In this document: piece after piece, positions 20,013 through 51,290 of the stretch | Layout of the letters: every line of letters starts with the position of its first letter | Numbering within the stretch: position 1 is the stretch's first letter | Assembly (NCBI GenBank): GCA_963971425.1 | Contig: OZ020514.1 | Span: 40,833,158 to 40,897,157 of the forward strand | Length of the DNA: 64,000 nucleotides | Source: Bryoerythrophyllum caledonicum | Lineage: Eukaryota; Streptophyta; Bryopsida; Pottiales; Pottiaceae | Reading direction: 5' to 3' | Translations under genes and position numbers: made by a program | Notes under the pieces: model-generated | Told to the model about the DNA's origin: nothing | Database searches by the model: none | What the model saw: the letters and a program-made list of their open reading frames with translations, nothing else

Positions 20013-20304
20013 AGGGCGGGGACGTCTCCGTGCAGGGGCGGAGACGTCCCCGCCCTTACCCAGGCAGGGGCGGGGACGTCTCCACCCCTGCGCGGGTAAG
20101 GGTGGGGACATCTCCGCCCCTGCCCGTGTAAAGGCGGGGATGTCCCCGCCCTTGCATGGGTAAGGGCCGGGACGTCTCTCCACAATATGGCAGGGCGGAT
20201 ACGTGCCCGCCCCTATCCGGGTAAAGGCGGGGACGTCTCCGCCCCACCACGGCAGGGCGGAGACGACCCCGCCCTTACTTGGGTAGGGGCTGGGACGTCT
20301 CCTC
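20013..20304. repeat. GC palindrome array 2
   Basis: About nine degenerate units spaced 30-35 bp, each with a GGCGGGGACGTCTCCGCC-type palindrome separated by TGCCCGGGTAA-like linkers. It lies just 5' of the hAT transposase start (19,725) and also beyond the 3' end of the next gene. The regular spacing and GACGTC core suggest a protein-binding or promoter array; function is inference. Confidence 0.85.
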
Positions 20305-21544: not shown

Positions 21545-21690
21545 TGGGGGCGGAGACGTCCCCGCCCCTGCCCGGGTATGGGGCGGAGACGTCCTCGCCC
21601 TTGCCTCGGTAGCGGCGGAGACGTCCCCGCCCCTGCCGGGCATGGAGCGGAGACGTCTCCGCCCCACCAGGGCAGGGGCGGGGACGTTTG
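21545..21690. repeat. GC palindrome array 3
   Basis: About five units of the GGCGGRGACGTCYCCGCC palindrome, 130 bp upstream of the 20,740-21,417 gene start. It mirrors the position of array 4 upstream of the paralogue. Confidence 0.85.
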
Positions 21691-29378: not shown

Positions 29379-29550
29379 AAGGGGCAGAGACGTCCCCGCC
29401 CTTGCACTAATAGAGGCGGAGACGTCCCCGCCCCTTTATGGGCAGGGGCGGGGACGTCCGCGCCCCATACGAGCAAGGCGGAGACGTCTCCGCCCCTGCC
29501 CGTGTAGGGGCGGAGACATCCCCGCTCAACCTGGGCAGGGGCGGCCCCAC
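29379..29550. repeat. GC palindrome array 5 (near right end)
   Basis: About five units of the GACGTC-centred palindrome, 190 bp inside the right end of the giant hAT. It balances array 1 at the left. Confidence 0.85.
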
Positions 29551-31103: not shown

Positions 31104-31806
31104 TTTCTAAAAGAAAAGACACATAGACGAACCGGTGGGAGGAAAAATAAATTAAATTCATCTGCAACAATGCTTTGCAAAATTCTCACAGCGGCCATGG
31201 TCAATGGTTTGGTAAACTTACCAACCCGGATATGAATTTTTTGCATCACATGGCAGCAAATGCAATTAATGACTTCAATGGTATGGTTTATTGTGATAAC
31301 ATTTCATATGCCCAAAAGCCATGATTAGAACTAATTTGTTGTTGGATTTAGATTGCACTTTGTCGGTTCATCAAATATTTTCTCTGTCGTGTAAACAAAG
31401 ATTGCTAAACACAATAGATCGAGAATCACAACCAACATCAAATAAACGAAAAACATACACTAAAACAAGTATACGTAGTACACCCTTAAGTGCCCCTCCT
31501 TGCGAATAAAGAGACCCTCTATCTGACTAGGACCAAACAACACTATGTAGACAATTGCCACGGTGATGCCGCTGCAACAACTGTACGCATCCAGTTGAAG
31601 ATGTAATCCCTTGCCGCATCAATAAACCAATAGAGAAGTAACTAAGAGAGGGTAGGCGGGGTGCAATGTGAGCCCCATCCTTAATCGCCTTAGTCAACTT
31701 TGTTGCCAATCCCTTTGTCAATTCCCAGATAGCCTATTCCTGAAACAGAACTAGGAACTTCAACTCGGTGGCAGGACACCATACCAATGACATGTCCAGG
31801 AGAAAA

Positions 31807-33369
31807 TCAAGTTGTTTCATCTGATGAAACGTGGCTAGAAGACCTCCTACAACGAGGGCAAGTCCAATCCCCAGGCGGTAGAGTAGAGAAGGGCGGCATC
31901 AAGCAAGCCATATGCCATCCACGCTGACAACGGTCGCATAATAACATGGTAGCCGCACCCTTCTTCTCACCACACACAAAACACGGAAGACCTTGTGGCA
32001 CAACGGCCAACTCAGGATGCACGGAGCCATCAATGGACAAATGGCAGGGTGCGCAGTTTTTGGAGTGCTACCGACACTCCTGGCCATCTTTGCCTTTCAG
32101 CAACAAGATGCCACTAGGCAACACATCCTTCACACGAAGAATGGTGCTCCCTGCCTTGACGTCCAATGTCGTAGGCGCCTTACGCTGCAAATAAACGTAA
32201 TCTTCTGTGGAGAAACGCCGCAACTGAGGTCGGTAAGCGCCGCTGCGAATGCGAGCGTATCGTAACGTGTCGCGATGCTAATTGATGGATAAATTCTCCA
32301 TGGCCATTGGCATGGCCCGCTTGAAGAACTCCGCTTGATCACGCAGAAACTGGATCCAGACCTTTGGATTATCCAAGTCCGCAACTGGGGTTAACTTCTC
32401 CCGTACAAAACTCGGTAGAATCGGCTCCCGTCTGTACAACAACTGATACGGACTGAAAGCGGCCAAAGAGGCATGTCGGCTAAACCGGTATCCCATGGCG
32501 ATCCATGGTATCATCAGATCCCAATCACGGTGGCCACCCTAAAGTAATCCATACTTTCGTAATCCACGCTTGACGGTCCGATTCACACGCTCCGCCGAAC
32601 CGTCCGCTTTCGGATGATCCCGAGAAGTAGTACGGTGATCAATCAAAGCTTTGGTGCACAGAGCCTCGAAAGCTCCAAGGAACTCTCGCCCGTGGTCAGT
32701 CAACACCTCAGCTGGAGCTCCAAAACGAGCCAGCACCCGGTCAAAAAATGCCATGGCCGCCAACTCCGAGGAGTTATGTGGTAGTGCCACAAGCTCAATC
32801 CACTTGCTGAAGTGCTCCACCATCACCAACACGTACTTGGCTCCATGTGGAGTGACAATAAGCGGCTCAAAAAAATCCAGAGACCAACAGTAGCCCAAAC
32901 CCATGATGGGCAAAGGTTGCAACTGTGGTGACAAGGTGTTGAAGCTGGATCTGGCCCGATCACAGACTTCACACCGTGAAATATACGTGGCGACCTGCTG
33001 ACATATGCCGGTCCAACAATATTGGCTGCGCAGCATCGAATGAGTCCGTCGCACGCCAAAATGTCCCACGTCTTCGTGTACTTGCCGTACCAACGAAGCC
33101 CTCTGATTTGGCCTTGGAACTATGCGCCTAGTCCCATCTGGCCACACGCGAAATAGAAGGCCGTTCTCCCAACAGAACTTTGCTATTCGGTGCCCAACTC
33201 TATCACGCTCTATAGAAGAAAGAGTTGGGGGAAGTGTCCCGTGTTGTAGCTTGTGCAAGACTGGACTGTCTTTCGACACATCGCTAACAACTTGGGCCCT
33301 ATCCGGTTCCTCATCCGTTGCCAAATTAGGCAACGTCAATGCAGACCCACACATCAACGTGAAGTAAGC
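31807..33369 (-). pseudogene. Gypsy-MT1 integrase with C-terminal PHD finger
   Basis: One frame with in-frame stops at about 32,539, 32,278 and 32,079 (all TAG). The HHCC zinc module is HEDVGHFGVRRTHSM with CEVCDRA. The catalytic core shows SLDFFEPL (Asp), VLTDHGREFLG (Asp) and DGSAERVNRTVKRGLRK (Glu). After the core come AAFSPYQLLYRREPILP and a linker with STEDYVYLQRKAPTTLDV and NCAPCHLSIDG, then the PHD finger: CFVCGEKK, MLLCDRCQRGWHMACLMPPF and GDWTCPRCRR, a full Cys4-His-Cys3 set. PHD fingers bind histone H3 tails, so this likely targets integration to particular chromatin, as chromodomains do in chromoviruses. Gypsy elements of green algae are known to carry PHD fingers here. It ends DETT with a stop at 31,807. 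Confidence 0.9.
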
Positions 33370-34937
33370 TGTTGCATGCTACCTTAGGACTGACTCCCTA
33401 TTGCAGTCCACATGCCACCTAGTACCAATTAAATCCTCCTCTGATGGACTTAGATGACGAGATAGCCCATCCGCATCCAAGTTTGTGATGCCTGCTTAGT
33501 GCACAACCTCAAAGTTGTACTCCTGAAGCAACAGAGCTCACCTGGCAAGCTTGCTAGTAAGCTTGTCAGACTCCATGAACCACTTAAAAGGATGGTGGTC
33601 GGTCACCAAGGTAAAACGCTGCCTAAACAAGTAGGGCCTAAAATGAGCTATGGCCCAAACCGTGGCCGAAGCCTCCCCCTCATAGGATGAATAGTTGGAC
33701 TCCGCGTTGTTGTTGCTCCAAGAAGCAAACGCAACAACGTACTCCCGTCCCTCATCATCCTTCTGAGTCAACACAACCGCAAATCCCACAGCACTCCGGC
33801 CTCTGTGCAACTGAAAGGGTCGTGTAGCATCCGGACGTTGTGGCACGGGCGTTGAACCGAGCTTCAGCTTCAATGTAGCAAACGCTTGCTACTGCTCCCG
33901 TCCCCATATCCATGGCTGATCCATCTCCGTGAGAATAGTCAAAGTCCTCGCAATCAAGCTAAAATTCTTGACAAATCGGCGATAGTAATTTGCCAAGCCA
34001 AGAAAAGCTCAAAGCCGTGACACGTCGATTAGGGCAGGAATCTTCTGCAATGCATCCAACTTACCCTGCTACACGCCAAGACCCCCTGGAACAATCATAT
34101 GTCCCAAGTATGGCAACCGGTCGTGGAAGAACTTGCACTTGCCATGGTACAAGCGCAATCCCCACTGTCGTAACCTCTCAAACACTACCTGAAGATGCCT
34201 CACATGCTCCTGTGGGCTACTACTAAAAATGATAACATCATCAATGTAGCATCGGGCAAACGGTAAACCGGTCAACACCCGGTCCATCACCCTCTGAAAC
34301 TCAGCGAGTGCGTTCTTGAGGCCAAATGGAAGAAACTTCCAATGGTAGAGCTGATCTCTCCCATCCAGATCAACTCCCCAGAACGCGTCTTCACCTAGTC
34401 GTCCACCATCAATGGTAACTAATGGTAACCGGACCGCAAATCCAGAGTACTAAATACTCTGGCGTGTCCCACCGCATCAAACAACTCCTCTGGCGTGGGC
34501 ATGGGATACCGATCCGACTTGGTCTTACGATTGATCGGCCTATAATCCCCACACATCCGCTTCTCCATCCAATTGCCAAAGATGTCCTTCTTCGATGGCA
34601 TCACCGTGGCACAAGCGTACTCGTCGTTGGAGAGCTCAATCAAGCTGGCGGCCAACAACTCCTGATGACGAGTCTGAACCCCAACTTTCTCAGAGATCCT
34701 AAGCTTGTACGGTCGTCGAAAGATCGGGTGGTCGTCCTTCAACTGAATGTGAATCGGTTTGCCTCTGTAGCCCTCCAAATCATGGAGACTAAAGGCAAAA
34801 CAACTACGATACGAAAGTATAAATGCTCGTATCATTTGTGCCTCGGCACTGGTAAGATGTGGCCCCAAATCCAAAGACCAATCATCAAACTCCATGGTCT
34901 CCTTCTCCACCATAGAAGACTCACCTCGTACGGGCAC
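33370..34937 (-). pseudogene. Gypsy-MT1 reverse transcriptase and RNase H
   Basis: RT starts with VPVRGESSMVEKE then FSLHDLEGYRGKPIHIQL and RRPYKLRISEKVGVQ. Motifs visible are ACATVMPSKKDIFGNW, MCGDYRPINRKTKSDRYPMP and FSTLDLRSGYH (catalytic Asp of motif A), then RVLTGLPFARCYIDDVIIFS (YIDD box, about 34,240). A short duplication (TTACCATTAG/TTACCATTGATGG) near 34,420 shifts the frame. RNase H follows at 33,873-33,538: VGFAVVLTQKDDEGREYVVA, SNYSSYEGEASATVWAIAHF and FTLVTDHHPFKWFMES (TDHHP is the tethering-domain signature). Several in-frame TAG/TGA stops are present. Domain order and motifs are normal for Ty3/gypsy. Confidence 0.9.
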
Positions 34938-34949
34938 GGCCAGTGATTG

Positions 34950-35439
34950 CTACTTGGTAGTAGAGAGGGCATTGATGCCCAAAGACTCCTCACTCACGGT
35001 ATCCACATAAATTCCCGTGTTGTGATGATAAATTCGGGCAAAGATATCCCGGGCATCCTCTCGACCAAAGTCCTCGGCCAAGGCTGCAAAGACACGCTCA
35101 GTATAAAACTCCTCAACTGCATGCCTCTTCAAACGAAATAACAACTCCGCTTCCACGATCTCTGTGAGATGTGGCACCGCTGCCCCCTGACCATCAGAGT
35201 TTGCCCCCAGCACGCGTGGATGGACACTCAAACGGTGCTGAACGGCAAAACAAAGGCCACAAACCCAAACAAGGGTGTTGAGGTCAATGGCTTGACCAAA
35301 CAAATAACGACGTTGGCCCTCATAGAGATGCGGTGCGGCGGTGGTGCCTGTCAAAAAGTCCATCGCCTACTCTTTCTCATCGGCAGAAGGTTCCTCGTAA
35401 GTTTGGGAAGTAGAATCCCAAACCATGTCCGGGCCACGT
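34950..35439 (-). pseudogene. C-terminal end of the gypsy-MT1 methyltransferase, then linker to RT
   Basis: Downstream of the solo LTR the frame resumes as VWDSTSQTYEEPSADEKE, TAG, AMDFLTGTTAAPHLYEGQRR, then YLFGQAIDLNTLVWV. This fits motifs IX-X of C5-methyltransferases, in which an E.x-rich segment leads to 'amGf..GtT' and then 'R...LGqAmdlntl'. Element gypsy-MT2 has the same text joined directly to the rest of the methyltransferase (EPIAYEKELAIGFLTGITAA), confirming the split. A linker rich in charged residues (VEAELLFRLKRHAVEEFYTE) then runs into the RT. The frame ends at TAG before the RT start. Confidence 0.82.
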
Positions 35440-36439
35440 GTCCTTGTCGTACCACGAATTATAAAATTTTGTTAGTTAGTTAGTTAGGGATCTTAAATAT
35501 GACTAGTTAGATAGATATAAGAGTTAGCCCTGGACTAGTATTGACCTTCAAGGTAGATTAGAGTTAAGAAAGTTAGAAGGTATTTCAAAAACCTTAGAGT
35601 GGATAAAAAGTGGTCCAGGACCCGATCCTAGCTGGAGCGGAATAAGGAGCTCGGAAGGGGAAAACTCAAAGCTCGATAGTTGGAGCGGAGTGCAAAGAGC
35701 CCGAAGATAACAACTGAAGCCCGAAAGAAAGTTCTAGGGCCCAAGCCCGGACTTCTTATAGAGCTGGAACTTGGAGAATGAACAGCACCAGCCGAGCCCG
35801 GAGGCCAGCATCAACAGGGCCTGGAGAATAGTACCAACGGAGCCTAGAGATCGACATCAACACGAATCCGGAGGCCAGCACCAGCGGAGCGCGAGGGGAG
35901 GTCCGAGTAGGCAATCCAAGCAGCGGAGCACGAGGAGGAGGTTCGAGCAGGCAGCCCAAGCAAGAAGCTGCTCACAAGCTCCACCCAAGCTAGAGGCCGG
36001 TATAAGAACAAGCAGCGGAGCGCGAGGAGATCCGAGCAGGCAGCACTCGAGCACCAAAGACGACGAGGGTTTTGAGCAAGCAATAAGCGCGGAGGCGAGG
36101 GTGGCGAGCACGCGAGGATCACCGTGGAGCAAGCTAGGAACAAGACTCCAAAAGCGATAAAGAACCCCGTAAGGACAACGACGAGGGACATGAGCGAGTA
36201 GGCGGGAGGAACATCACCAACTCCGCAAGCAGCGCAACAAGGAGCACGCGCGCACCGAGCGTATATAAGGATCACCATCATCACGAGAATACCTGGACGG
36301 CAAAGGCAGTAACGGAACCGTGAGGGCAACCATCACCAAGATAGCTCGGAATGGACTCGGACAAAGATCACAACGCGAACCAAGCTCGGAGGCGGACGAG
36401 TAGAGGAAGACAACCGCGAGCAGCAAAGCAAAGAGCAGG

Positions 36440-36885
36440 CGCGGCACGAGCAACGAACAGGATGTGAGCTCGGACCGAGCCCGGAAAGTTGTCCCGAAAT
36501 TCCTGAATCTTGGGAGAGGCATAACTCCCTTGATACTTGTCCAAATGAGCTGCGTGAGGAGTCTATCGGCATCTACGCAACAAGGAGATATCAATCAAGT
36601 GGTCGATCACTCCATTCAGATGCATACAAAGGAAGATATGCTGCCTAGAAGGTTCAGCTCGGATGTGAGCTCGGACTGAGCCCGGAAAGCTGTCCCGGGA
36701 GTCCCGAATCTTGGGAGAGGCATAACTCCCTCGATACTTGTCCAAATGGAACAAGTGAGGAACTTGTCGGCATCTACACACTGAGTAGATGTCAATCAAG
36801 TGGTCAATCGTCCCGTTTGGATGCGGGACAAGGAAGATACACGGCCTAGAAGGTTCAGCTCGGATGTGAGCTCGGAAGGGAGCTT
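36440..36885. repeat. Tandem duplication of about 200 bp in the solo LTR
   Basis: GCTCGGATGTGAGCTCGGA...GAATCTTGGGAGAGGCATAACT...CAATCAAGTGGTC occurs in two diverged copies, with a third start of GGTTCAGCTCGGATGTGAGC at about 36,856. Confidence 0.8.
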
Positions 36886-36954
36886 GGATAACCGAAGGAG
36901 GACGACCACCACCGACAAGGCAAGGAAGGCAAGCTCGGATAGGCAAGAGATGAG

Positions 36955-37320
36955 GACCACCACCGGGAAGGAGAGGACGAGCCCGGACCACGAAGGAGAG
37001 GACAAGCCCGGACTGGGAAGGAGAGGATGAGCCCGGACCGGGCCGGAGACCATGAGCAACGACCGGGAAGGAGAGGAGGAACCCGGACCGCGAAGGAGAG
37101 GACGAGCCCGGACCGCGAAGGAGAGGACGAGCCCGGACCGCGAAGGAGAGGACGAGCCCGGTCCGCGAAGGAGAGGACGAGCCCGGACCGCGAAGGAGAG
37201 GACAAGCTCGGACCGGGAAGGAAAGGATGAGCCCGGACCGGGAAGGAGACCATGAGCAACGACTAGGAAGGAGAGGAGGAACCCGGACTGCGAAGGAGAG
37301 GACAAGCGCGGACCCTGAAG
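36955..37320. repeat. 25-bp minisatellite in the solo LTR
   Basis: A dozen or so head-to-tail units of GAAGGAGAGGACGAGCCCGG plus ACCGC (25 bp), some near-identical around 37,080-37,200. Two further short arrays follow (GAAGGTAGGTCCGAGC units at 37,320-37,400 and 37,500-37,660). Since 25 is not a multiple of 3, the long Ser/Pro/Arg-rich frames over this array are artefacts. Confidence 0.85.
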
Positions 37321-39359
37321 GAGGTAGGTCCGAGCATATTAGCTGAAGGTAGGTCCGAGCATATCAGCTGAAGGTAGGTCCGAGTTACAAACTAAAGGTA
37401 GGTCCGAGCTGCAGGGCGAGCTGGGACACCACCTCTACGAGAAGACCACCACCACACGAGCATTAGAGCTAAAGGGCGAGCTGGGAATACACGAGCACGG
37501 GCTGTGGCACCACGAGGTCCGAGCTGCAAACTCGGGGTAGGTCCGAGCTACGAGTTGAAAGTAGGTCCGAGCTGCGAGTTGCAGGTAGGTCCGAGCACGC
37601 GAGTTGAGGGGAGAGCTGTGGCATCACGAGCACGAGCTGCGAGCTGAGGGTAGGTCCGAGGTGCGAGCTGAGGTCAAGTTGGGACACACCTCCATACAGG
37701 GGGCCTTCATTGGGACTCCGAGCCTCGTATCGGCCCTTCCGGCCCGGTCCGAGCCCCACCGAAGCACGACTTCCGTGCTACTTACTCCGGGTGGTCCGGA
37801 TGCCTCCGTGACTTCGATGGAGGCCTTGCCTCGGTCATCCATGGCCGGATCGGCACCCTCTTCATCTGCGGATCTGTTATCACCACTTGTGACACTCGCG
37901 AAGGCTGCGGCGCACCCGACTTCCAGCAAGAGTTTGAAGAAGCGGAAGAGGAGGGAAGAGAAGAGAAGACTTGAGGAGTTGGCCCGGAAGTAGGGTCAGA
38001 ATCTTAGTTGATAGGTCACTGTTCATTCGCGGACTAGGCCTCGCGTTGACTTTGGGATTTGACTTGGTTTTGCCTTGGGTTTTGTGTAATAAGTGACCTC
38101 TGACGGTGCACGTCGTGTGGAGTGGCAGCCACCGCCGCCAAGAGTAGTTAATGTCACCGTTAGAAGGTATCTTTGAGTTTGGACTCTTGTGTCAGTCCTT
38201 CGCGGTATAAGAGAGGAGTCCCGTGGCACCTCTCTTCACTGCTTGATGTGTGTATTTGCTTTCAGTTGAATTCTAAACCTACGCTCTGAGAAGACCTTCG
38301 ATGGTTGGAGAGCTCGGATTGCATACATGACTGTGAGTGCCATTTCAAGTAGTCCACTCCTCAAGTCCATACTAACTGTCTAATCATTGTTTCCTTGTTC
38401 CATTAAGTAGATTAGTCGTGGTGGATGGGAATAGCAGGTAAGGTGAGAAGACGGTTAGTAGGGACGTGACTCCAACTCTAACCGTACAGTTGTTTCCTTG
38501 TTCCATCAATTAGATTAGTAGGGGTGGATGGGAATAACAGGTGAGATTGTATGTGTCTAGAAGAGGACGAGGGGGGAGTGACGGATGTGAAAAGGGATTT
38601 AACGAGTCTTGAGTGACCTTCCGGCGTACCGATTGGTGTCGATTGTGAAGGCTTGTACCAATCCCTGAAATATCCTACCTCCAGCTGCAGCGGAAGTGGA
38701 GGGAGACTGAGAGGAGGACGGATAGTGGGCGGGTAGGCCCCTTGCTCACTTACATTACGCCGCTCGCAGCCTCGGAAACACGGGTCTAACACCCCTTCGG
38801 GGGGATCCCAGTGACACCATAACCATCCAAGAGAGTGAGTAGAGTTAGAAGGAGAGAACGAGAGGAAGAGTAACTGTTATTTGGGTCAAACGCTAGAATC
38901 TCTATGAGTCCACGGAATACTGTCCGTGATGATATACTCCTTATCCGGGTACTCGTGTACTCCGGATGTTTATAGTGTGCATAGTTGTAAAGAAAACCCC
39001 CCCCTCTCTTAAACCGGGGCTCCGGACAAAGTAGGCTCCTACCCAAAGGTTCCTACCTTCCGAGCCAAGTAGGCTCCTACCCGAAGGTCCCTACCTTCCG
39101 AGCCAAGTAGGCTCCTACCCGGGGGGAAGACACTTGTACGGAGAGCAGGATAGTGGATGTAGATAACGCTCAGGCATTGTAATCTAACCCTTTTCCTTTC
39201 TTTCCTTTGATGTATTTATTGTGATATAGGTAACATTGTGTACATATAAACAGGTTGTTAGTCGTTGTAGTTCTCGGTGATTCTCTGTGGGAACGATTAC
39301 CTTAAGGGTATCTTTGTGTTAAGATGTGAATAGTTGCCAACACGTACTACGACAGTCCT

Positions 39360-40800
39360 AAAGGCAAAAGAGCCTCGGTAGCACATCAAGGTGGGAAATG
39401 CTCCCCGAGAGAAACCAACGCGGTTGACTACTGCCAATGGTGGCTCATCATCTTTAGTAACCTCCGTGGAAACACGATGGTCATCCAAGATGTCATTGAC
39501 CTCACGACGCACGGGCTGTTGCACTTGAATAAGTGCAGAGGTGAATGTTGTTGATGATGCCATATTGGTCCAAATCCAACGTGGCCGATGGGCGTAAGAT
39601 CCTAATGCCGTGGCATCAACAAACATGGGGGACCAAGAAGGTGATGGATGTATGCCCCATCCTCACGCACCTTCATCCGTGTATCCTACAATGGGGGTAC
39701 ATTCTCAAAAATGTACCCCAGTGGCGTCGATTGGTGGGTACTCCACCACTGGATGAGCCTGAGCAAATCCGCAAAGATACCCGATCGTGGATCATCCAAG
39801 CCACGTCCACTGCCCGCTTGTGAATGTCCTTGGCAAGGCCATCCGACAATCACCAAGTCCACGTGACCTAATCGGCGAAAATCATCCTCACTGACCAACG
39901 TCACATCACGTGGCAACTTGCCAAAACACCTTTGAATTGCACAAGGTGGTAACTACTCTGGATACAACGCCAAAAGATGCTGAATGTAATGGTGAGCGGC
40001 ATGGTTGGCTGCAAATCCACTATCCACGTGGACATACCGTCATACCTTGAGTCCGGCCTCCAACACAGCCGTGAGCCCCGTACCAATACCGGCAAATAAC
40101 TCCACAAGGATAATATCCTCATCAGGTGGTTGCCACTGAATAGTGCAAGCCAACAATGGGGTGGAAGAATTTACTAACAACGGTGGAGTATCAAGGGCGT
40201 TCACAATCTCCTGACTCTGACGAGTGAGCTCCAACAGCGTCCCCCACGGCGGAAGCGGATCCTTGCAATGATGGGCAGTGATTGCCAATGGTGGGTGCTC
40301 GCGTGAATCCTCCACCTCAGACATAAATGCATATGTTTTCTCCAAAAGTGAAGAACCATACGGCAAGTTTGATGCCAGAGCACTGCACTCAAACATAGTG
40401 TCCGTCGTCGAAGTCACCGCGCTAGCTGTGAAGACCACAGAGATGAGCTCCTTACTGCCATCACCGGCAGACCATCCTAGCCTAATCCATACCTCCTCCG
40501 TCCAGTTATTCACCCCGCAAGGAAGGGAATAAAGCGCGTGCTGGCCCACCAAAATATCGTAGTTGGTGGCGCTAGTTAGAGTGCTCTGAAGGGTGACATG
40601 GGAGAACAACAAACCAGATCCGACGCCAAACATCAACTGCAACGGATGTCGGGTGTAATCCATGGCCTTCTCCGTGCCCCCAGCGATGTAACAATCGTGA
40701 ATGAGCAAGGCTTAAGGTCCAAAGCACCTACATCTAAATCCTCGATTTACTACTTGCCAATTTTCACTGGTTGAGCTCCACAGTCCAACATAACACGAAG
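39360..40800 (-). pseudogene. Gypsy-MT1 retropepsin and C5-cytosine DNA methyltransferase
   Basis: The protease starts with VMLDCGAQPVKIGK (active-site Asp near 40,784, DCGA for DSGA), continues LKPCSFTIVTSL, HPLQLMFGV and ATNYDILVGQHALYSL, a typical retropepsin end. After a linker comes a C5-methyltransferase: ILVELFAGIGTGLTAVLEAG (motif I, SAM-binding; about 40,110), DLVIVGWPCQGHSQAGSGRG (motif IV, catalytic Cys in PCQ; about 39,830) then LDDPRSGIF, YIFENVPPL (motif VI, ENV) and FVDATALGSYAHRPRWIWTN (motif VIII). Internal stops are TGA 40,040, a TAG in YPE*LPP, and a TAG after NVPPL; one frameshift separates motif VI from VIII. The enzyme family transfers a methyl group from SAM to cytosine C5. 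Which class (DNMT3-like or other) is uncertain. Confidence 0.88.
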
Positions 40801-42859
40801 GGGGTAGCTGGAGTGGGGTTGTCTACCGTACGACCAACCACCATGACTACGTCATCGTTTACCAAGCGTACCACCCCTAGACGCACACTGTGTCGCTCCC
40901 GTGCCAACCGGGTTGCAACGTCAGACAAAGTAGCCACTCCAGAGATCAAGGACTGATCCGCGGAGGGCTGCTCCGTAAGTGTAGAAGTGGCATTGGCCTC
41001 AAATGCGGAAGTAGCCTCCGCCGCCAACTTGGCTCGCATTGCCACCAAATCCTCCTTAGTGGGTGGAGTTGTCACTGCCTGCGACACCTCTAACGATGGC
41101 ATGGGCACCTTGCCCTCTAACATACTACCCGCCAAGTGAAATACACCGGATGGTTGAAAATTCGGTGTCAAAAAGTCCACACCGGCAAACACCGGCAACC
41201 GCAACACCTTGTACGCAAAGGAATGAGCGGCTTCGACATGAGTGAAAGAAGCTGGTGATACGTTAGAAAAACGGGAAGCGGCATCAGTAGCAGCTGCATC
41301 TGCAATGCCAAACGATAGTGGTAGCCGTGATTGACCAATGTGGTCCGGTAATCCCACGTGGCGTGGACGACCACTAGTTCTCGACACACTGGATGAAGGT
41401 GACACTGCCAGAGCAATGGTCAGAGCACGAGTGGCAACTGCAGCCACAACCTCTTCGGAAGCGCCATACAAATAGGCATCCATGGCTGAGGACAAACCAC
41501 GACTCTTCACCGTAGCCCGTGCGTCCACCACTTGTCCCAAAGAAGCATTCGCACTCAACTTCTTCAACTCCGCCAAGTCCTTCTTCCGTGATGAATCTGA
41601 ATGGAGAACAAAGCAGTTCTCATCACTATGGCTAGACTTGCCACAGTGAGAACAAGTAATCGGCTTCTTCTCCTTGCCTGCAACCTTGTCACCAGACTTC
41701 GCCGCCTCGGTCTTAGGCCTCACCTGCCCCTTCTCTGCCCCCTTCTTCTTAGAACAGTTCGGATCCCCTTTGGTGTGACGGGATCTCCACAAGCCCAGCA
41801 ATGCACAACCTTTTCAGGTTGTGCCTCCGCCAAGCTACTCGTCGCAGTAACAAGCTTCTTGGACTTGGAAGCGTCCATCAATGACGTGACCAAGTCTGTG
41901 GCCTCGGACACGCCCAGCGCTCTATCAAACACTTCTACCTCAGCAAACGCCAGAGCCAAACTAGCGTTGCCGTGATAATCAAAAGGAAGACGGGTAGGGA
42001 TCAAGTCCACCATTTTCTTGTTCAACTTGGACATAAAAATCTTCACAAGTTGGCGCTCCGTAAAGACATCACCTGCCTCCGCTGCCAACCGCGCCAATCG
42101 GGTATACATGGTGCTCGGCGTGTCCTCCTTTTCACGGCGGAAATCGTGAATGCGTTGCATCTGATCAAGCCAGAATCCCTCATACTCCACCTCCTAGTGC
42201 ACCATAAACTGCGCCAGAGGGTCAAAGACCGGTGACGGACCAACGGCCACCAATGCCGTCCGCGTGGCCTGGGCCAAACGCGACATGGCCCCCATGCCGG
42301 ACGCCTCATCTACAAGGACAATGTCCTTCTGCCGGGAATCCTCACTAATGGAACCTCCCTCCACCTTGGGTTGAACGGTAAAGGTCGGGACACGGGCAAC
42401 GGCACTTTTCTTGAGCGCAGTCATCAACTCCACCCGGTCGCGCCAGTAATCCTCAACCGGACGCAACTCCTCCACATGTAATACCGACCACCTTCCATAG
42501 GTCTGGAACGCCTTCAGCTCCAAATGATGGGGCAAAAGCTCAAAAGCGTGTTAGTTGTTGAATGACGGTGAACGTTGACGCTTCTCCTTCATCCATGTCT
42601 GGAAACGGAGCCGCCAATCGGGCAAGGCGATGCCTCCAGCCTAACCTGAGAAACGATCACGCACAACCTGGCGGTGATCGTCCTCCATGTCGTTAAACGT
42701 GCCCACACTCCAAACTCGAAGCCTACAATCAGTATCCAACGTCGAAATAGGCTCAAAAGAATCGTCGGTATCCGAACCTGGCCCAAAGTCTAAAGCCGGT
42801 GCACTCTCCGCAGAATCTGATGAGGAAGAACGGTAATACCGACTTCTCATAATCACCAT
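40764..42859 (-). pseudogene. Gypsy-MT1 gag polyprotein with two zinc knuckles
   Basis: Starts MVIMRSRYYRSSSSDS at 42,859 with an acidic N-terminus. A gag core around 42,190 shows GFWLDQMQRIHDFRREKED, YTRLARLAAEAGDVFTERQL and KIFMSKLNKKMVDLIP, the retrotransposon-gag pattern. Two CCHC knuckles follow: the first is split by a frameshift (HCWACG in one frame, SRHTKGDPNC in the next, near 41,780), the second is intact as CSHCGKSSHSDENC (about 41,640). A long Ala/Ser/Thr-rich region then runs to the protease. TAG at about 42,194 interrupts the frame before the gag core. gag would form the particle and bind RNA. Confidence 0.8.
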
Positions 42860-44404
42860 AAATAGAATTTCCCTGGGTAACTATCTACGGGTGCTATCTA
42901 AAGGATAAGGGTACGGACGGGCAACCTGCACCTGCAAAATCACCAAGCTATGTGCTTTACCGGTCATCACCTCCGGCTAACGCACGTCCAACAACATCCC
43001 TCCACATAAAAAGGTCTTGCCGGTTATTACCTCGACTTCACCACTATGGTACTCTATCACAAACTAGTGACAACAAGAAATGGGGCCACCGGAAAACACC
43101 AGCAACAAGCCCGCAACACGGGGGAAGTACTGCACAAGAATCCATAAAATCAAAACCAGATCTCCTCCCCCAACGACATGAAAGCAGAAAATGACAAGGG
43201 GTCGGAGCCACTAGCACGCGCCTGCAGTGGTTGGCCCGAGTCGCAAACCTGCAGTACAAAGAGAAATACTAGAAGTATTTCTCCAATTTTAGCACTAAGG
43301 GAAATAGTGGGAACTTGTCCGCGGTGTTCAAAAACATAAACCCACGAATGAGAATGCAATTCAATGGGTGAGAAACGCGACAAACGCCAATCCACTACCA
43401 AAATGGGATCAAATGACGGAATCCCATACTATAGGTGCAAAAGAATGTCACTCCAAACCGAGTAACAAATCTTGCAATCCCCTTCCAAAGTGCCGACCCT
43501 TTTTTTTAATATATAGCCACATAAAAATGTAATTTTAAAAAAACTTTCATTCCAAATGTTTTTCTTGCCTCTTAGATAAAAACCCCCTTAAAAAGCTCAA
43601 ATCCAAAGTCGGAATCCAAAAATAGTAATTATTTTGGAAGATATGAACTCACAGTTGTTTAAATCTCGCTTAAATACAGTTTCATCCGCAGTGGATGAAA
43701 TCTACCCGCATCGAATGAAAATCTACACAATAGATGAGAAATTGCAAATCGGATGGAAACTCGCAAAACGGATGAAAAATTACCGCAGCAGATGAAACTG
43801 CCGCAGCGGATGAGAAACGACGCAGTGGATGAAAAATCGGCGCAGACCAGAATGTTGCCCTTCTTCACTACAAACTTTGAATGCCCACAATTTCTTCAAA
43901 AATTCTCCAAATTGAGCACCGTTTGTTGTGTTGTCTTCATCTAACCGCGCTCTACAACATTAATCTAAGTACCTACAAAAAAATTCTACTCACTTAAGCT
44001 CACATTTAAGAACTAAAGAAGAGATTGCGGGAGGTCTTTGTCAAGTGAACAAGAATGAAATCACACAATAGTCAAGCGTCTTGCACTCCACATGGGGAGA
44101 ATCAAGGAGTGCAAGTAGAACTAGAGAATGAGGAGCATTTACTAATGAAAACCATCACTTACAAGTAAACACTCACAAATCACTCTCTAAACACTAACAA
44201 AGTTTTACTTGACAAAGATGTCAAGTCAAGGACAAGTGCGGCGCTATATGCACACGCAGAATCCTAAGTGGATGAAAGTCATCCATGGATGAATAAGGTG
44301 CGCCGCCATACGTACCTAAATAGTAACTAACGTAGATTAGACTAATCTAACCTACGCTAACACTACAAGATGTGGTGTGGTCCTCGACGCCACATCCCGT
44401 GACA
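42860..44404 (-). repeat. Gypsy-MT1 5' LTR and leader
   Basis: The outer end (minus strand TGTCACGGGATGTGGCGTCG) and scattered blocks match 51,270-53,205 of the second copy: GTCTTTGTCAAGTGAA, AAGTATTTCTCCAA and GATTGGCGTTTGTCGCG are examples. The LTR/leader boundary and primer-binding site could not be fixed. The part 43,670-43,860 is a minisatellite of roughly 20-bp units around GGATGAAAAATTRCCGCAG. 44,200-44,300 also contains GTGGATGAAAGTCATCCA, a short hairpin shared with 53,075-53,095. Confidence 0.7.
43670..43860. repeat. Minisatellite in gypsy-MT1 LTR
   Basis: Eight to nine degenerate tandem units of about 20 bp built on GATGAAAAAT.RCCGCAGY.G. This array is not evident at the matching place in gypsy-MT2. 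Confidence 0.75.
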
Positions 44405-45344
44405 TCTCACCTTTAGAAAATCATGACCATAAATTGTCTTTTCTTTGATAGATAAGAGGGTTTTAATTTGCCGTAGACAATTTCATATATGTATTCTATT
44501 TAAATATGAATTTGTAATTCTACTTTTCTTTTCTTTGCACTTGAATTCGTTTTCTTTCATTTTCTTAAATTACTTCTACATCAGACATTTTATGTTTTCA
44601 CCCCATTCCTTATTTCTTCCCATTTTGCCACTTGGTTGTCTCCAAAAATTTAACAAAGTCCATTCTCACTTAAGTAGAATTTTTGGATGAAAATAACTTA
44701 CTCCAATTCTGTTCAAATAAAACAAATGAGTTGTTTTTTGACATCAACAAAAATGTAGATATCAATAAACACCCCATATGTTGAATTCGGAGATGTTATG
44801 CGTGAGATACGGCCTCCAGAAGTTTCTAGGAACGATACATGGTAGTTTTCTGCAACACGCTTTCCACACACTAAATGTGCATATGTAAAAAAAATATCCT
44901 TCAAATCTTTATTGAAATTTGCATATGGTATATTATTTCAAATTTAGTGTATTGCCATGTCACTACACTAATTGTAATTTTTACATTTAGTATATGGGTA
45001 CGTATTTAGTGTGCAATATACTAAATGTGATGGTTAGTGTAGTTGATTAGGCTTAATCAATTGATTGGGTGTTAAGGAAAAAGTAGAGACGATAATGTGA
45101 AGGATAGCGGTGAGGGTGCCTATTCAACGTGCATGATCTTGTAGAGTTGGGCGTAGTAGCGAGCACCACCGCAGAACCTACGACGATGTCTAGTTGGGGA
45201 TTTCAAACGGTTGCTTCCACAACTCTCTCCGCTCTCCGTCCACTTCACCACTTCTCAAAAAATTCACTTTTCCTCCTCTCTGTAACTTCACTAACTATTG
45301 AAATTACTAAATAAGAATACAAACAATAACTGACATTTAAATGC
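44405..45344. other. Spacer between the two gypsy copies, with repeat R2 copy 2
   Basis: No gene. Contains R2 copy 2 at 44,865-45,050 (see 29,150-29,370). The remainder is AT-rich unique-looking sequence. Confidence 0.5.
44865..45050 (+). repeat. Repeat R2, copy 2
   Basis: Same-orientation copy of 29,150-29,370, sharing CACTAAATGTGCA, ATGTCACTACACTAA, TATGGGT and TTTAGTGT in order. Confidence 0.65.
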
Positions 45345-45949
45345 AAAAACCAACAACTCTTGGCAATAAGTCTAGACCCCATCTTTCTTTGGGAGATTGA
45401 GCTTGTACGATCCTTAATAGATCAAGTGGTCGTCTTCCAACTCAATGTGTATCAATTTGCATCTGTAGCCCTCCAAATTATGGAGACCAAAGGCAAAACA
45501 ACTACGGTATAAACAAATAAATGCTTGTACCCTCCGTGTCTTGGCACCGGTAAGATGTGCCCCCAAATCCAAAGGTTAATCATCAAACTCTGCGGTCTCG
45601 TTCTCCACCGTAGAAGACTTATAGCATATAAGCACAATCGGTGATTGCTATTTTGTAGAAGAGAGGGCATTCATGCCCCTAGACTCCCTACTCACAAGAT
45701 CCACCATTAATTTCGTATTGTGGTCATAAAACCAGGAAATGATATCCCGAGCATCTGCTTCACCAAGTCCTTGATCAAGGCTGTAAAGACTTGTTGAGCA
45801 CCAAGGAGCTGAGTTGCATGCCCCTTCAAACAAAAAAGCAATTGCGCTTTCTTGATCTTTGTGAGATGTGGCACCGCTGCCACCTAGCCATCAAAGTCTG
45901 ACCCCATTATGTGTAGATGGTCACGCGAACGATGTTGAACGGCGAAACA

Positions 45950-47575
45950 GAGGCCACAAACCTAAACAAGAGTACTGAAGTCAATGGCTTAACCCAACAT
46001 ATAATGACGTAGGCCCTTAGAAAGATTTAGAGCGGCAGTGATGCCTGTCAAAAAGCCTATCGCTAGTTCCTTCTCATAAGCAATAGGCTCCTTGTAAGTT
46101 TGGGAAATAGAATCTTATACTATACCCAGATAGCGGATCTTAAAGGCAAAAGACCATGGATAGCACATCGACAAAAAAAATGACCGTGGAGTAAAAGCAA
46201 CGCCGTTCACCACCGCCAATCGTGGCTCATTATCATTGGTAATCTCCGTGGAAACACGGTGGTCGTCTAAGATGTCATCGACCTCACGGCACACAAGATG
46301 TTGCACTTGAGCAAGTGCAGAGGTGAGCATCGCCAATGATGCCATGTTGGTCCAAATTCAACGTGGCCGATGGACATAAGAGCCCAATGCTGCAGCATCT
46401 ACAAACATGGGGGGGCCAAGAAGGTGATGGAGGTATGCTCCCTCCTCACGCACCTTTATTCATGTATCCTCTAATGAGGGTACATTCTCAAAAATGTACC
46501 CCGATGGCGTTGATTATTAGAGACTTCAATAGCGAATGAGCCTGAGCAAATCTATAAAGTGACCTAACCATAAATCATCCAAGCCGCGTCCATTGCTTGC
46601 CCGTGAATGGCCTTCGCAAGGCCATCCAATATCACCAAGTCCACGTGACCTAACCGGTGTGGATCATCCTCATTGATCAATGTCAAATCACGTGGAAACT
46701 TGCCTAAATACCCTCAAATGATAGAAGGTGGTAACTGCTTTGGATACAACGCCAAAAGACGTTGAATGTGGTGGTGAGCGGCACGGTCAGCTGCAAAGCC
46801 ACTATCCACGAGGATGTCCCCGCGTCCCTTGAGCCCAACCTTTAACACAACCGTGAGCCCTATACGGATAGGAGCAAATAGCTCCACGAGATAATACCCT
46901 CATTTGGTGGTTGCCACTGAATAGTACAAGCCAACAATAGAGTGGTAGAGTCTAGTGAGAGATGTGGAGCATCTAGAGCATCCAAAATCTTCTGGCTGCG
47001 ACTAGTGAGCTCCAACTGAGGCTCCATAGGAGATCCTTGCAATGATGTGCAAGGTTCTCTATTCATCTGGGCTTACGTGATTCCGCATTCCTGACATAAA
47101 AGCATGTGTCTCCTCCAATAGTGTAGAACAACATGGCAAACCGAATGCCAAGGCATTGCACCAATACATAGCATCCATTGTCGACGTCACTGTTCTAATT
47201 GCAAAGACATCCGAAATGAGCTCTTCGCAATCATAATTAGCAGACCACCTAGGCCTTATCCAGGCCTATTTCGTCTAATTATCTATCCCAAAACCAAGTA
47301 GATAAAGCGCTTGATGACCCATCAAAATGTCATAGTTAGTGGCGCCACTGACAACGCAATGGAGAGATACATGGGCGAATAGTTGACTAGATTCTATGCC
47401 AAACATCAACTGCAACGGATGTCGGCGGTAGCCTGTGACCTTCTCAGTGCCCTCCAATGATGTAACAATTGTAAATGGGCAAGGCTCAAGGTCCGAAGCA
47501 CCTAGACCCAAATCCTTGGCTAGCTGCTTATAGATCATCACTGGCTGAGATACGGAGTCCAAGATAACACGTAGG
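45950..47575 (-). pseudogene. Gypsy-MT2 retropepsin and methyltransferase
   Basis: The protease piece reads VSQPVMIYKQLAKDLGLGAS, EPCPFTIVTSLEG, HPLQLMFGIES and ATNYDILMGHQALYLL (47,575-47,275). The methyltransferase retains a damaged motif I (LVELFA, then PIRIG where MT1 has GIGTG), a motif IV whose frame reads IGWPCEGHSRASNGRGLDD (PCE where MT1 has PCQ), and motif VIII followed by CREVDDILDDHRVSTEITND. It continues into EPIAYEKELAIGFLTGITAA without the LTR insertion. At the position of the MT1 stop YPE*LPP this copy reads YPKQLPP with CAG, showing that stop arose from CAG. Confidence 0.75.
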
Positions 47576-47929
47576 GGGGTCGCTCAAGTGGGGTTGTCGT
47601 CCGTACGGCCAACCACCATGACTCCGTTGTCATTCACCAAACATACCACCTCTAGACGCACACTACGTCGCTCCCGTGCAGATTGGGCCGCAACATTCGA
47701 TCAATAAGGCACTCCAAAAATCACAGACTAATCCCCGAAAGACTGCTCTCTAGGTGTACAAGTGGCGTTGGCTTTATGTACTAAAATTTACTCCGCCGCC
47801 AACTTGGCCCATATAGCCATCATTTGTACTCGATGGATGGAGCCGTTTGTCCCTACAACACCTTTAACGATGGAATAGGCACATTGTCCTCCTACAAGCT
47901 ACTCGCCAAGTGGAATCCACCGGATGGTT

Positions 47930-49460
47930 GAAAATTCAGTGCAAAGAGTATACATTGGCAAACACCGGCAACTACAACACCTTATACGCCAAGGAGTGCG
48001 CCATTTCCACGACTAAAGAAACTGGTGGGATGGGGGTTGGAGTGGGAGTGACAGTAGAAGTAGCTGCATCCGCGATGCTCAACAAAAGAGGTAGCCAAGA
48101 TTGATCAATGTTGTCCGAAAAACCCGTGCGGCGAGGACGGCTACTACCACCTGGCATGGAAGGAGAAGTTGCCACCTGGTCGTGAACGGCCGTAGACTGA
48201 GGACAAGTTAGAGATGCTGCCACCACCTCCCCTGAAGTGCCATACAAGTAGCAATTTAGGCTGAAAATGACGTTAAGCCCTCACTAGAGACTGTGTGTTT
48301 GCCACTTGTCTCAAAGAGACCATTGCGCTCATTTTCTTCATCAGCTCTGATAGTTCAACCTAAAGTGAATATACCACATGTAATCGAGCAACTGAAGACC
48401 CTGGGCGCTTCTTTGTATGAAGAAAAAAGCAATTCTCATCACCTAGGCTACTCTTGCGACAATGAGAACATGTCATGGTTTTCTCCGCCTTGCCCCTAGC
48501 CTTCTCTACATGCTTGGTTGTCTCCGTCTTGGGCTTGGCTTTCACCGTGCTTGCCTCCTTCTTTGGACAATTTGGGTACCCCTTTGTGTGGTAGGCTTCC
48601 CTTCAAGCCCAACAATGCACAACTTTTAAGGTTGTGCTTTTGCCAAGCTACAAGTAGCTTTGACAAGGTTCTTAGGCTTGGGAGCCTTCTACAATGACAT
48701 GACCAAATACGTGGCCTTGTTTACGCGCAGCGCTCTATCAAGCGCTTCCATATCATTAAGCGCTTCCAAGTAGCGAATGCTTGTGCCAAAGTGGCGTTTC
48801 CATGATACCAAAAAAGAAGATGTAGTCTAATCAACTCCACCATCCACTTATCCAGCTTGGAGATGAAGATCTTCACCACCCGGCGCTTTGTGAACAAATC
48901 ACCGGCCTCCGCTGACAACCGCGCCAACTAGGTATACATAGTGCTTGGGATATCTTCTTTCTCTCGGCAGAAATCCTAGATGCGTTTCATCTCATCAAGC
49001 GTGAATCCCTCATACTCCACCTCTAGATGTGCAATGAATTCCGCTAATGGATTGAAGGGTGGCGGATTGTCAACCGCCACCAATGACACACGTGTGGCTA
49101 TGGCTAAACAGGACATGATACCCATGCCAGCCTATTTGCCGACAATGGCAACACCCTTGCCCGTAGAGTCCTCATCGAGAAAACTCTCTTTTACCTTGGG
49201 CTCCTTGGTGGAAGTCAAGAGTTGGGCAAGTACACTCTCTTTAAGTGCTATGATCAAATCCACACGTTAGAATCGATACCCCTCAACGGGGAGCAAGTGT
49301 GTGTAGTGCTGCATAGTCCACCTCCCGTATGACTGAAACGCCTCCAACTCCAAATGTTGGGGCAAGAGCTCAAACACATACCAGTCATTAAATGACGGCG
49401 TCTGCTGGCGCTTCTCCTTCATCCAAGTCTACAATCAGAGCCGCCAATTGGGCAGGAAAA
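47930..49460 (-). pseudogene. Gypsy-MT2 gag region, part 1
   Basis: Decayed equivalent of 40,764-42,600. The knuckle MTCSHCRKSSLGDENCFFLH is recognisable near 48,460, and ARLSAEAGDLFTKRRVVKIF plus KLDKWMVELIRLHL near 48,840-48,920 match the gag core. Frames are broken by many indels and stops. Confidence 0.7.
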
Positions 49461-49630
49461 TACAGCGACTTCAAGAAATTACTCTATGAGGGTATTTGAT
49501 TTAGAAAAGTAATAATGTAGAGAGTATGAAGAATCAAAGCAATAAATTTTGAACATGAAAGTTTGAGAGCATGAAGTAACTGACAACCTCAAGAAAATTG
49601 AAAAAAATTTGCCACTAGATAAAAAAAATA

Positions 49631-50926
49631 CATAGTGCCAAAGTTAACTATGTACATAGACTCATTTATTGAGGCATTCTACACAGAGTGGTCAAAATTT
49701 TGTCCACTTTCCACGAGCAGCCAAAACAACTGCAATTCGATGTGGCATGCTAGCATACAATCTCTCACATTGCTCTGTAGTGATCGTCTTATAACTCTCC
49801 TCCACACGCTCCCATAATTGCAAAAGACCTACAGGAGGAGTTGGATAGGAATTCAAACGATGTTTGAGGATTGCCCAAACATGTTCTATGGGATTTAGGT
49901 CTGGGGATTGAGCTGGCTACTCTAAAACAGAGAATGGTTGCTCTAAGAACCATTTCTGAACATTCTTTGCTTTATATATGGGAGCATTATCATGCTGGAA
50001 AATGACGTTATCGAGGTTCAGGTATCCTAATCTCCCTAAACTCAAGTACAAATCTCCATGCAAGATTGAAATATAGTCCTTTGCATTTAAACGCCCATCC
50101 ACCTTTTGTAAATCACCTAGACCTCTTGTTGTCATACAACTCCATAGCATCAGAGACCCTCCACCATGCTTCATTGTTTGCTTCACCGCACGATCAGGCA
50201 AGCTTTCTTTGTCATTAACCCAACACCAAGTCCTCCCATCTGAATTGAAACGATTTATCTTTGTTTCATCACTGAATACAACTCTCTTCCAATCCTCTAC
50301 TGTCCACTCTTTATGAATTCTTGCAAATTGTAGCCTCTCTCGTACATTTTTCTGTGACAAACAAGGCTTAGGAATCTTCTCACAAGCACTCAATCCAGCA
50401 TCTCTCAAAGCAAACCGCAAAGTGTTATCACAAAAATCCACTTCTCTACCCTCTCTCAACATTTTTGCTGCCTGTACTGCCGTTTCTAACCCTCCAACTG
50501 TGACCAAACGCACTGCACGTTGTCTCTCTGATGTGGTAAGAATCTTTGGAGCACCTCGTTTTGGCAGTTCTAAGTTACTACAATGTTTCTTCCTCACTCT
50601 ATTCACCGTACTTTGTGAGAAACCCAAAGACTTTGCAACCACTCTTGTACTCTGACCTTTCATCAAAAGAGCAACAATATCTCTCACTTTGTCTCCTGAA
50701 ATTGGCTTCATCATACCAATCTTAATTCCTATTCTCCACAATATGTTCTACAAGAAGGCAGAGAAGAGAAATCACAAAAAAATTCATCAAAAAACACAAG
50801 TTTCTATCTGTTCTACACTCATCTGAAGTTGCTCCAGAAGCCACCTCAAAAAATGAGTCTATGAGGGTACATGCACATTTGTAATCATAACTCACGATGT
50901 AGATATTATTTAGGCAAAGCGCCATG
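49631..50926 (-). mobile_element. Tc1-1, Tc1/mariner element inserted in gypsy-MT2
   Basis: Inverted repeats flank a Tc1 transposase: ATAGACTCATTTATTGAGG at about 49,656 and, inverted, CCTCAAAAAATGAGTCTAT at about 50,844. A weaker outer match (CATAGTGCC from 49,631 and GCGCCATG to 50,926) is bordered by TA on each side, the Tc1 target. Outer limits are not certain: relative to gypsy-MT1 the extra DNA spans about 49,460-51,030. Confidence 0.72.
49692..50741 (-). pseudogene. Tc1 transposase (DD34E), one in-frame TAG
   Basis: One frame from 50,741 to TGA at 49,692-49,694 (350 codons, normal Tc1 length), interrupted only by TAG at 49,917-49,919. Two helix-turn-helix regions are seen: GDKVRDIVALLMKGQSTRVV with GFSQSTVNRVRKKH, and SERQRAVRLVTVGGLETAVQ onward. 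Catalytic residues are VVFSDETKINRF (Asp), VIFQHDNAPIYK (Asp) and, after the stop, SPDLNPIEHVW (Glu), with 34 residues between the second Asp and Glu. The C-terminus reads ASMPHRIAVVLAARGKWTKF, typical of Tc1. The stop replaces the Trp expected in VLEWPAQSPDLNP. It is among the best-preserved transposases of the window. Confidence 0.93.
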
Positions 50927-50929
50927 TAG

Positions 50930-51290
50930 TGTGTGTTAAGAGTGCATTAGGCAACAATGGAATTATTTTTAAGGCTTCAGCCGCCTTAAGGTTTATGAGC
51001 TGGCCCTCATTAATGCTCTCTGACAGGGGCATTGACTCATTTGTTGAGGTCGATGTATCTTGAGCCCGTTTGGAGAACCTGCCTTGCACGACATGACGGA
51101 GATCATCCTCCATGTTGTGAATCGTGTTGACGCACAAGATCCAAAGCCTACGGTTGGTATCCAACACCAAAATAGGCTCAAAAGCCTTGTCAGTATCCAA
51201 CCCTGGCCAACGACTCAAGCACTCTCCAGGTGGTTTGGCGAGGAGAAGCTGTGATACCGACTCTGGATACTCACCATAGAGAAAAACTAC
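50930..51290 (-). pseudogene. Gypsy-MT2 gag region, part 2 (N-terminus)
   Basis: Beyond the Tc1 insertion the gag N-terminus continues: DTDKAFEPILVLDTNRRLWI and NMEDDLRHVVQGRFS match DTDDSFEPISTLDTDCRLRV and NMEDDHRQVVRDRFSG of MT1. The extra SKRAQDTSTSTNESMPLS is not in MT1. Confidence 0.7.

Follow-up and report, generated by a model that had tools for sequence, protein, structure and literature searches.

The window analysed here, a stretch of 64,000 nucleotides from the moss Bryoerythrophyllum caledonicum (GCA_963971425.1, contig OZ020514.1, positions 40,833,158 to 40,897,157), contains two decayed copies of a retrotransposon family with Ty3/gypsy domains that carries a C5-cytosine DNA methyltransferase domain (DNMT), which profile and predicted fold support as DNMT3-type. 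In open copies of the family elsewhere in the genome, a first open reading frame (ORF1) encodes Gag, protease and, as its last domain, the DNMT; a single stop codon follows, typically a UAG in a leaky-type context, and ORF2 continues in the same frame with reverse transcriptase (RT), RNase H, integrase and a PHD finger. With moderate confidence we propose that this UAG is read through, that the DNMT, made at the dose of Gag, methylates the element's own complementary DNA (cDNA), and that the PHD finger steers integration.

Open copies and subfamilies

The assembly (437,360,962 bases in 894 contigs) contains at least 123 matches to the Pfam family PF00145. Twenty of these matches have an open frame of 1,305 aa or longer; 19 of the 20 were treated as long loci, and in ten of these 19 an ORF1 of 1,305–1,371 aa (stop to stop) and an ORF2 of 1,041–1,047 aa lie in one frame. 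The search for uninterrupted copies, which had been proposed in an earlier, sequence-only reading of the window, thus yielded at least ten copies with both frames open, and the DNMT therefore belongs to the family. Subfamily A (L009–L025) consists of two branches with an ORF1 identity of ~77–78%. Subfamily B (L026 and L027), which the window copies match, shares ~36% ORF1 identity with A. A protease-DNMT relative of B, used as query, gave at least 69 scored matches with 85–90% identity. L027 and L026 are recent insertions, since their paired terminal repeats are nearly identical.

Relatives of the DNMT-bearing ORF were found by protein search in Marchantia, Calypogeia, Sphagnum and Closterium; none were found in the viral contigs searched. 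Trees of the DNMT and of the RT agree where their rows overlap, the DNMT tree having left out L009, L013, L019 and P0034, which the motif patterns missed. The broken and interrupted state of the first window copy might suggest that its DNMT is passenger cargo caught once, or an artefact of the assembly, but this is refuted by the second window copy, the many genome copies, the relatives in the four genera and the agreement of the two trees, and we give it practically no weight.

The ratio of observed to expected CpG is 0.49–0.53 in eight of the 19 long loci (L010–L014, L017, L020 and L022), all from one branch of subfamily A, and 0.75–0.82 in L009, L015, L016, L018, L019, L021 and L023–L027; it is 0.78 in the window and 0.79–0.80 in subfamily B. 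The depletion in the one A branch would fit methylated copies. As proof of self-methylation it was rejected because it is confined to that branch.

The stop codon between ORF1 and ORF2

Junctions were read in three sets. UAG followed by CAR-YYA (R, purine; Y, pyrimidine) is present in 17 of the 19 long loci; L017 is rearranged, and L024 has CAG at the stop position, which joins ORF1 and part of ORF2 into a frame of 1,710 aa. The second set consisted of 20 junctions taken by rank from the 103 remaining matches; 19 were covered, with UAG in 19/19 and CAR-YYA in 17/19. In the third, the first 40 of the 69 subfamily B matches (L026 and L027 again included), UAG was found in 39, TAA in one and the hexamer in 40/40. 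Pooled, the sets hold 77 distinct junctions, of which 76 were covered; 73 of the 76 have UAG and 71 have UAG with CAR-YYA.

Both decayed window copies retain UAG with CAR-YYA. Four of the 1,730 TAG trinucleotides in the window are followed by CAR-YYA, and two of the four are the element junctions. ORF2 of the ten open copies terminates in TAA or TGA without CAR-YYA. The hexamers, CAACCA and CAATCA, differ between the subfamilies, and the synonymous divergence (dS) between A and B is mostly saturated. According to PMC2754532, readthrough in tobacco mosaic virus (TMV) depends on the hexamer CAR-YYA. From the retention of UAG with CAR-YYA at the junctions, the DNMT is predicted to be made together with Gag, and RT, integrase and PHD finger to be a minor readthrough product. 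The UAG could instead be an ordinary stop, with ORF2 expressed by internal initiation or from a spliced RNA and the context inherited by chance. Several relatives do manage with one fused frame, and the copies within each subfamily are close. However, UAG and CAR-YYA are shared by subfamilies whose ORF1 identity is ~36% and whose dS is mostly saturated; their hexamers differ and ORF2 remains in frame, so that an ordinary stop appears improbable. Among the relatives, known as protein sequences only, 18 end after the DNMT (Marchantia P0029 among them), and P0043 and P0052 continue from the DNMT into pol.

Class, fold and selection of the methyltransferase

The best PDB profile matches for the domain were DNMT3A and DNMT3B. 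A structure prediction, a further check named in the sequence-only reading, gave for a relative the fold of S-adenosylmethionine (SAM)-dependent C5-methyltransferases, nearest to DNMT3A/3B, with identities of 19–26% in the structural alignments. The motifs run in linear order from I to X, and the domain is of the Dnmt3 class, without the rearrangement of DRM enzymes. PCQ, ENV and the RxR of motif VIII are retained in L012 and L027, one copy for each subfamily, and the ratio of nonsynonymous to synonymous divergence (dN/dS) between two branches is 0.04 for the DNMT and 0.03 for the RT.

A role on RNA, or as a structural or nucleic-acid-binding module of the particle, would agree with the location of the domain on the Gag side, behind the zinc knuckles, with the persistence of the domain in some relatives (P0170, P0185) that have lost PCQ and ENV, and with the inactivity, judged inconclusive, of the Klebsormidium nitens domain on yeast DNA as described in PMC5890265. 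Against such a role stand the motifs kept in L012 and L027, the dN/dS of 0.04, the fold nearest to DNMT3A/3B and the methylation of DNA in yeast by SymbioDIRS-Dnmt3 domains (PMC5890265); we regard it as unlikely, though less so than an ordinary stop.

The copies in the window

The first window copy is a dead, decayed member of the family. It lies on the minus strand at 31385–44404, between GAGA target duplications, and its parts are, from the 5' end of the element:

31385..44404, minus strand: copy 1, whole; an A repeat at one end, a B repeat at the other and GAGA outside both; includes a 3,910-bp nested insertion; the second A and the second B are absent
44405..44408: target-site duplication on the 5' side (GAGA on the element strand), twin of 31381–31384
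44041..44404, minus strand: A repeat, the direct repeat at the 5' end, with 81% identity to that of L027 (364 bp)
40767..42880, minus strand: gag, spread over several frames and with CCHC zinc knuckles; compared by eye with ORF1 of open copies
40112..40711, minus strand: C-terminal part of the protease and linker, both ahead of motif I; the domain limit is approximate
40043..40111, minus strand: DNMT motif I (ILVELFAGIGTGLTAVLEAGLKV; also written ILVELFAGIGTGL), the end of an open frame (40043–40711) that begins in the protease
39689..39952, minus strand: DNMT motifs IV (PCQ; GWPCQG) and VI (ENV; FENVPPL), in the frame of motif I, past two in-frame stops
39355..39662, minus strand: DNMT motif VIII (HRPRWIWTN) and start of motif IX (FPTLMCYRGSFAFR), in a different frame, open at 39300–39662
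35445..39354: nested insertion within DNMT motif IX, 3,910 bp, with TGTC...GACA ends; AGGAC duplicated at 35440–35444 and 39355–39359
34953..35444, minus strand: rest of DNMT motif IX, motif X and the tail of ORF1; one in-frame stop (35367–35369); matches relatives P0002 and P0003
34944..34952, minus strand: ORF1 stop with its context, TAG CAA TCA, in the frame of the RT; a TMV-type leaky-stop signal, the same in subfamily B copies
34072..34949, minus strand: RT in two frames; PF00078 E = 2.2e-21 on 34072–34449, and 34422–34949 by likeness to ORF2 of L027
33541..33888, minus strand: RNase H (PF17917, E = 3.9e-27)
32071..33378, minus strand: integrase with H2C2 zinc finger, DDE core and C-terminal part (PF17921, E = 1.5e-15; PF00665, E = 2e-14), in one frame with single TAG stops
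31810..32067, minus strand: PHD finger at the integrase C-terminus (PF00628, E = 1.5e-11)
31385..31485, minus strand: B repeat, the single copy left
31381..31384: target-site duplication on the 3' side, twin of 44405–44408

Most parts are broken by in-frame stops, frame changes or the insertion, and the DNMT is split by all three. The gag survives as open pieces at 42644–42880, 42197–42550, 41723–42193 and 40767–41813. The protease profile Asp_protease_2 stays below the curated Pfam cut-off, with E = 0.018 for the matching piece of copy 2 and 0.0012 for L027; in the relatives P0014 and P0017–P0019 the protease is named by Pfam. The 88-aa piece 39689–39952 matched PF00145 (DNA_methylase) with E = 9.5e-12 and M.HaeIII with E = 3.8e-7, and the end with motifs IX–X (RRYLFGQAIDLNTLVW) lies in the open piece 34953–35366. 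The numbers I to X on these pieces are those which we take the motifs to have; the Pfam and PDB alignments are the sole computed assignment.

The nested insertion contains a 25-bp tandem array (36962–37323) and other repeats, and its TGTC...GACA ends resemble those of its host element; long terminal repeats (LTRs) were looked for in it and not found.

The second copy, likewise decayed, is truncated in the RT and has no insertion in its DNMT:

45350..53205, minus strand: copy 2, RT-truncated
52845..53205, minus strand: A repeat of copy 2, 82% identical to the A repeat of L027
45642..45650, minus strand: ORF1 stop of copy 2 with its context, TAG CAA TCA

Over the same DNMT stretches the two copies share 77.2% and 71.5% DNA identity, and relatives with long open frames (P0002–P0009) match these stretches of copy 1 with 74–81% amino acid identity. 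The DNMT of copy 1 is therefore beyond chance, because both copy 2 and the long-ORF relatives match it. A Tc1-type transposase is inserted in copy 2 at 49695–50747.

The sequence-only reading had listed motifs I, IV, VI, VIII and IX–X in the order of C5-methyltransferases, and the frames as read on the minus strand, together with the Pfam match, agree. It had also described the domain as continuous with the retropepsin upstream and the RT downstream, within one polyprotein. The element does have the Ty3/gypsy domains, and both neighbours are in place (the RT at 34072–34949), but in copy 1 the continuity is lost to stops, a frame change, the insertion and the stop codon 34950–34952, which separates the DNMT from the RT. 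Nor is the domain simply part of one polyprotein, because in open copies it ends ORF1 and a conserved UAG separates ORF1 from the RT.

The PHD finger and its pairing with DNMTs

The PHD finger that had been noticed on the integrase was recovered at 31810–32067, and that of L027 matched PF00628 with E = 2.1e-10. The nearest solved PHD fingers are those of PHF12, CHD4, KDM5 and UHRF1, several of which bind the unmodified tail of histone H3.

With the integrase tail and PHD finger of L027 as query, 181 proteins were matched and 120 listed; the organisms named among the latter are Marchantia, Klebsormidium, Volvox, Haematococcus, Tetrabaena and Astrephomene. In 42 of the 120 listed proteins a DNMT profile matches the same ORF, from which the combination of DNMT and integrase-PHD is, at the level of sequence, a recurrent kit of the green lineage. 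An RT motif was found in 16 of the 42, with the DNMT behind the RT in 15 and ahead of it in one, and the kit thus occurs with two DNMT positions. One element had been suggested to hold both a DNA methylation writer and a histone reader; both domains are present, but many other elements share the pairing. The K. nitens RT-integrase-PHD protein P0159 gave no DNMT match in its ORF.

In a tree of the position classes, which included one partial DNMT3A row and ten probably prokaryotic rows and from which a motif pattern left out the Marchantia and Calypogeia rows, the ten rows with the order RNase H-DNMT-integrase constitute one side of a branch (95/95) once P0065 is read as DNMT-integrase-PHD. Constraint tests (nine or eleven rows together; P0065 placed with protease-DNMT-RT) rejected neither position class (p = 0.21 and 0.18). 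P0170 and P0185 (Astrephomene) and others keep a DNMT domain between RNase H and integrase that has lost PCQ and ENV, and are possible pseudoenzymes. Behind the PHD finger, P0065 (1233–1293) and P0068 (1887–1951) have a stretch with DPWxGxG and SPxF motifs and no Pfam match which, by eye, resembles a second SAM-dependent methyltransferase.

Element ends

In L027 and L026 the order is A - ORF1 - ORF2 - B - A - B. The A repeats of L027 (364 bp) are 99.45% identical (one mismatch, one gap) and its B repeats (102 bp) 100%; the paired A repeats of L026 are 98.6% identical. In the stretch examined for L011 and L012, B repeats of 239 and 233 bp (B1/B2) and part of A (A1) were found. The outer ends are TGTC...GACA, and each of the three copies for which both ends are available is flanked by a 4-bp duplication: GTGC in L027, AGCA in L026 and GAGA in window copy 1. 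TG...CA ends with a short target-site duplication are therefore present, but the ends are not plain LTRs, in which identical repeats directly bound the internal region: the 5' end has A alone and the 3' end B-A-B. The ends are DIRS-like split direct repeats combined with duplications as a DDE integrase makes, and the single A and single B of copy 1 would fit a recombination between two B repeats. These hybrid ends raise the question of how the element replicates.

Proposed mode of action

In the proposed cycle, particles of Gag-protease-DNMT would form, with the DNMT made at the dose of Gag, the coat protein, and packed into them. The UAG would likely be read through at low frequency, so that few chains carry RT, integrase and PHD finger. 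The packaged DNMT would methylate the new cDNA, most likely at CG, and the PHD finger, as a predicted reader of histone H3, would steer integration. The likely benefit would be that new copies arrive methylated and in chromatin low in methylation of H3 lysine 4, where they might cause less harm to the host and be less recognized as foreign DNA. A broader proposal is put forward only tentatively and with less confidence: that in a green-lineage group of split-repeat elements with DDE integrase, a DNMT3 writer at Gag dose and a PHD reader may constitute a self-silencing insertion programme, whose copies are pre-methylated and placed by histone state.

A retained DNMT might act on the host genome, protecting silenced niches or blunting host silencing, and not on the element's cDNA. 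If made in the amount of Gag, the enzyme could escape from the particle, and the PHD finger suggests contact with chromatin; yet the methylome of K. nitens is described as plant-like despite such elements (PMC5890265), and the sequence is silent on the substrate. We consider an action on the host genome about as improbable as an ordinary stop.

Several observations weigh against methylation of the cDNA by a Gag-dosed enzyme. In yeast, no methylation was obtained with the retrotransposon DNMT of K. nitens, a result that the authors of that study judged inconclusive (PMC5890265). L024 has CAG for the stop, L085 has TAA, L017 is rearranged and the hexamer is broken in L039 and L040; Closterium P0024 and the metagenomic P0051 are fused from DNMT to RT, with no stop between. 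Within a subfamily the stop context could have been kept by recent descent, the comparison of A with B alone being independent. All genome copies were reached through the DNMT itself, a sample to which copies without the domain do not belong. The dN/dS of the DNMT is higher in close pairs (0.08–0.16), as calculated from few changes. Lastly, the second A branch (0.75–0.82) and subfamily B, including the window copy, are not CpG-poor, and the low CpG of the eight loci could be explained by host methylation of silenced copies.

Relation to known systems

Retrotransposons with a silencing enzyme have already been described in Klebsormidium and in dinoflagellates (De Mendoza et al. 2018, PMC5890265), as the sequence-only reading had stated for charophyte algae and dinoflagellates. 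The closest known is KnitGypsy-Dnmt3 of K. nitens, compared here by its description in that paper. Shared features are a Dnmt3-class domain without the DRM rearrangement, the Gypsy domains (RT, RNase H and DDE integrase), DIRS-like repeats and purifying selection on the DNMT. In contrast to KnitGypsy-Dnmt3, whose DNMT is described within the Pol polyprotein ORF, the moss DNMT closes the Gag-protease ORF ahead of a leaky-type UAG, with L024 and the fused relatives as exceptions; likewise, PHD does not occur in the main text of PMC5890265, whereas the moss family has a PHD finger on its integrase. The dinoflagellate elements SymbioDIRS-Dnmt3 and SymbioLINE-Dnmt also carry an intronless DNMT on a retrotransposon, in many copies and under purifying selection, and SymbioLINE is CpG-poor as well; as described in PMC5890265 they differ in being a tyrosine recombinase element and a LINE, respectively, and not DDE-integrase elements. 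Methylation of cDNA was proposed there for SymbioDIRS, with CG methylation in yeast and none for the K. nitens domain. PMC12344493 (2025) restates, citing the 2018 paper, retrotransposon DNMT3 in 'LTR Copia and DIRS' of streptophytes and dinoflagellates. Where it says Copia, the moss element has the Gypsy order, RT before integrase.

The order protease, then RT-RNase H-integrase, is that of Ty3/gypsy elements, with the protease below the Pfam cut-off. Split direct repeats are known from PAT elements, and the order A - ORFs - B - A - B is shared with DIRS/PAT; the moss family differs by a DDE integrase and 4-bp target duplications in place of a tyrosine recombinase. With DNMT3A and DNMT3B the moss domain shares the motif order I to X and the best profile and fold match; reader and writer are here on different ORFs of one element. 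The ADD domain is a PHD-like histone reader. Animal DNMT3 carries an ADD domain (PMC12344493). With the TMV-type leaky stop the family shares UAG CAR YYA and a downstream in-frame polymerase ORF, readthrough here being predicted from sequence; it differs in having a DNA methyltransferase as the last domain of the upstream product. PMC2754532 mentions candidates for readthrough among the gypsy elements of rice.

In the open-access literature, judged largely from search listings, no paper was found on a DNMT ahead of a leaky stop, nor on PHD finger and DNMT in one element. The moss family is large, partly recent and of low dN/dS on the enzyme, with relatives in liverworts, Sphagnum and Closterium. 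New here are the DNMT ahead of a leaky-type UAG, the DIRS-like ends with 4-bp duplications and the recurrence of DNMT with integrase-PHD. By its anatomy, the family may dose the enzyme along with Gag rather than Pol, and its integrase adds a chromatin reader. The purpose of such DNMTs thereby becomes directly testable, as a specific part of the element can be assigned to stoichiometry, to cDNA methylation and to target choice.

Other features of the window and the assembly

A 498-aa open frame lies at 11797–13293 and matches Plant_tran, a domain of plant transposon proteins (E = 2.3e-83). Plant-type transposon domains and NAM-associated domains, together with the relatives of the element, suggest a streptophyte host. 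The Rfam scan of the window gave no match at the gathering threshold. Elsewhere in the assembly, the region G000:C14:16013000-16022000 (L001, L028) is GC-rich and lies close to a run of 200 N. Its C5-methylase looks bacterial, one of its frames resembles, by eye, an IS-type transposase, and the block is probably a bacterial contamination. Within the window, GC-rich 32-bp tandem arrays of the GGGGCGGAGACGTCCCCGCCCC type occur in both orientations at 20028–20302, 21547–21687 and 29380–29544.

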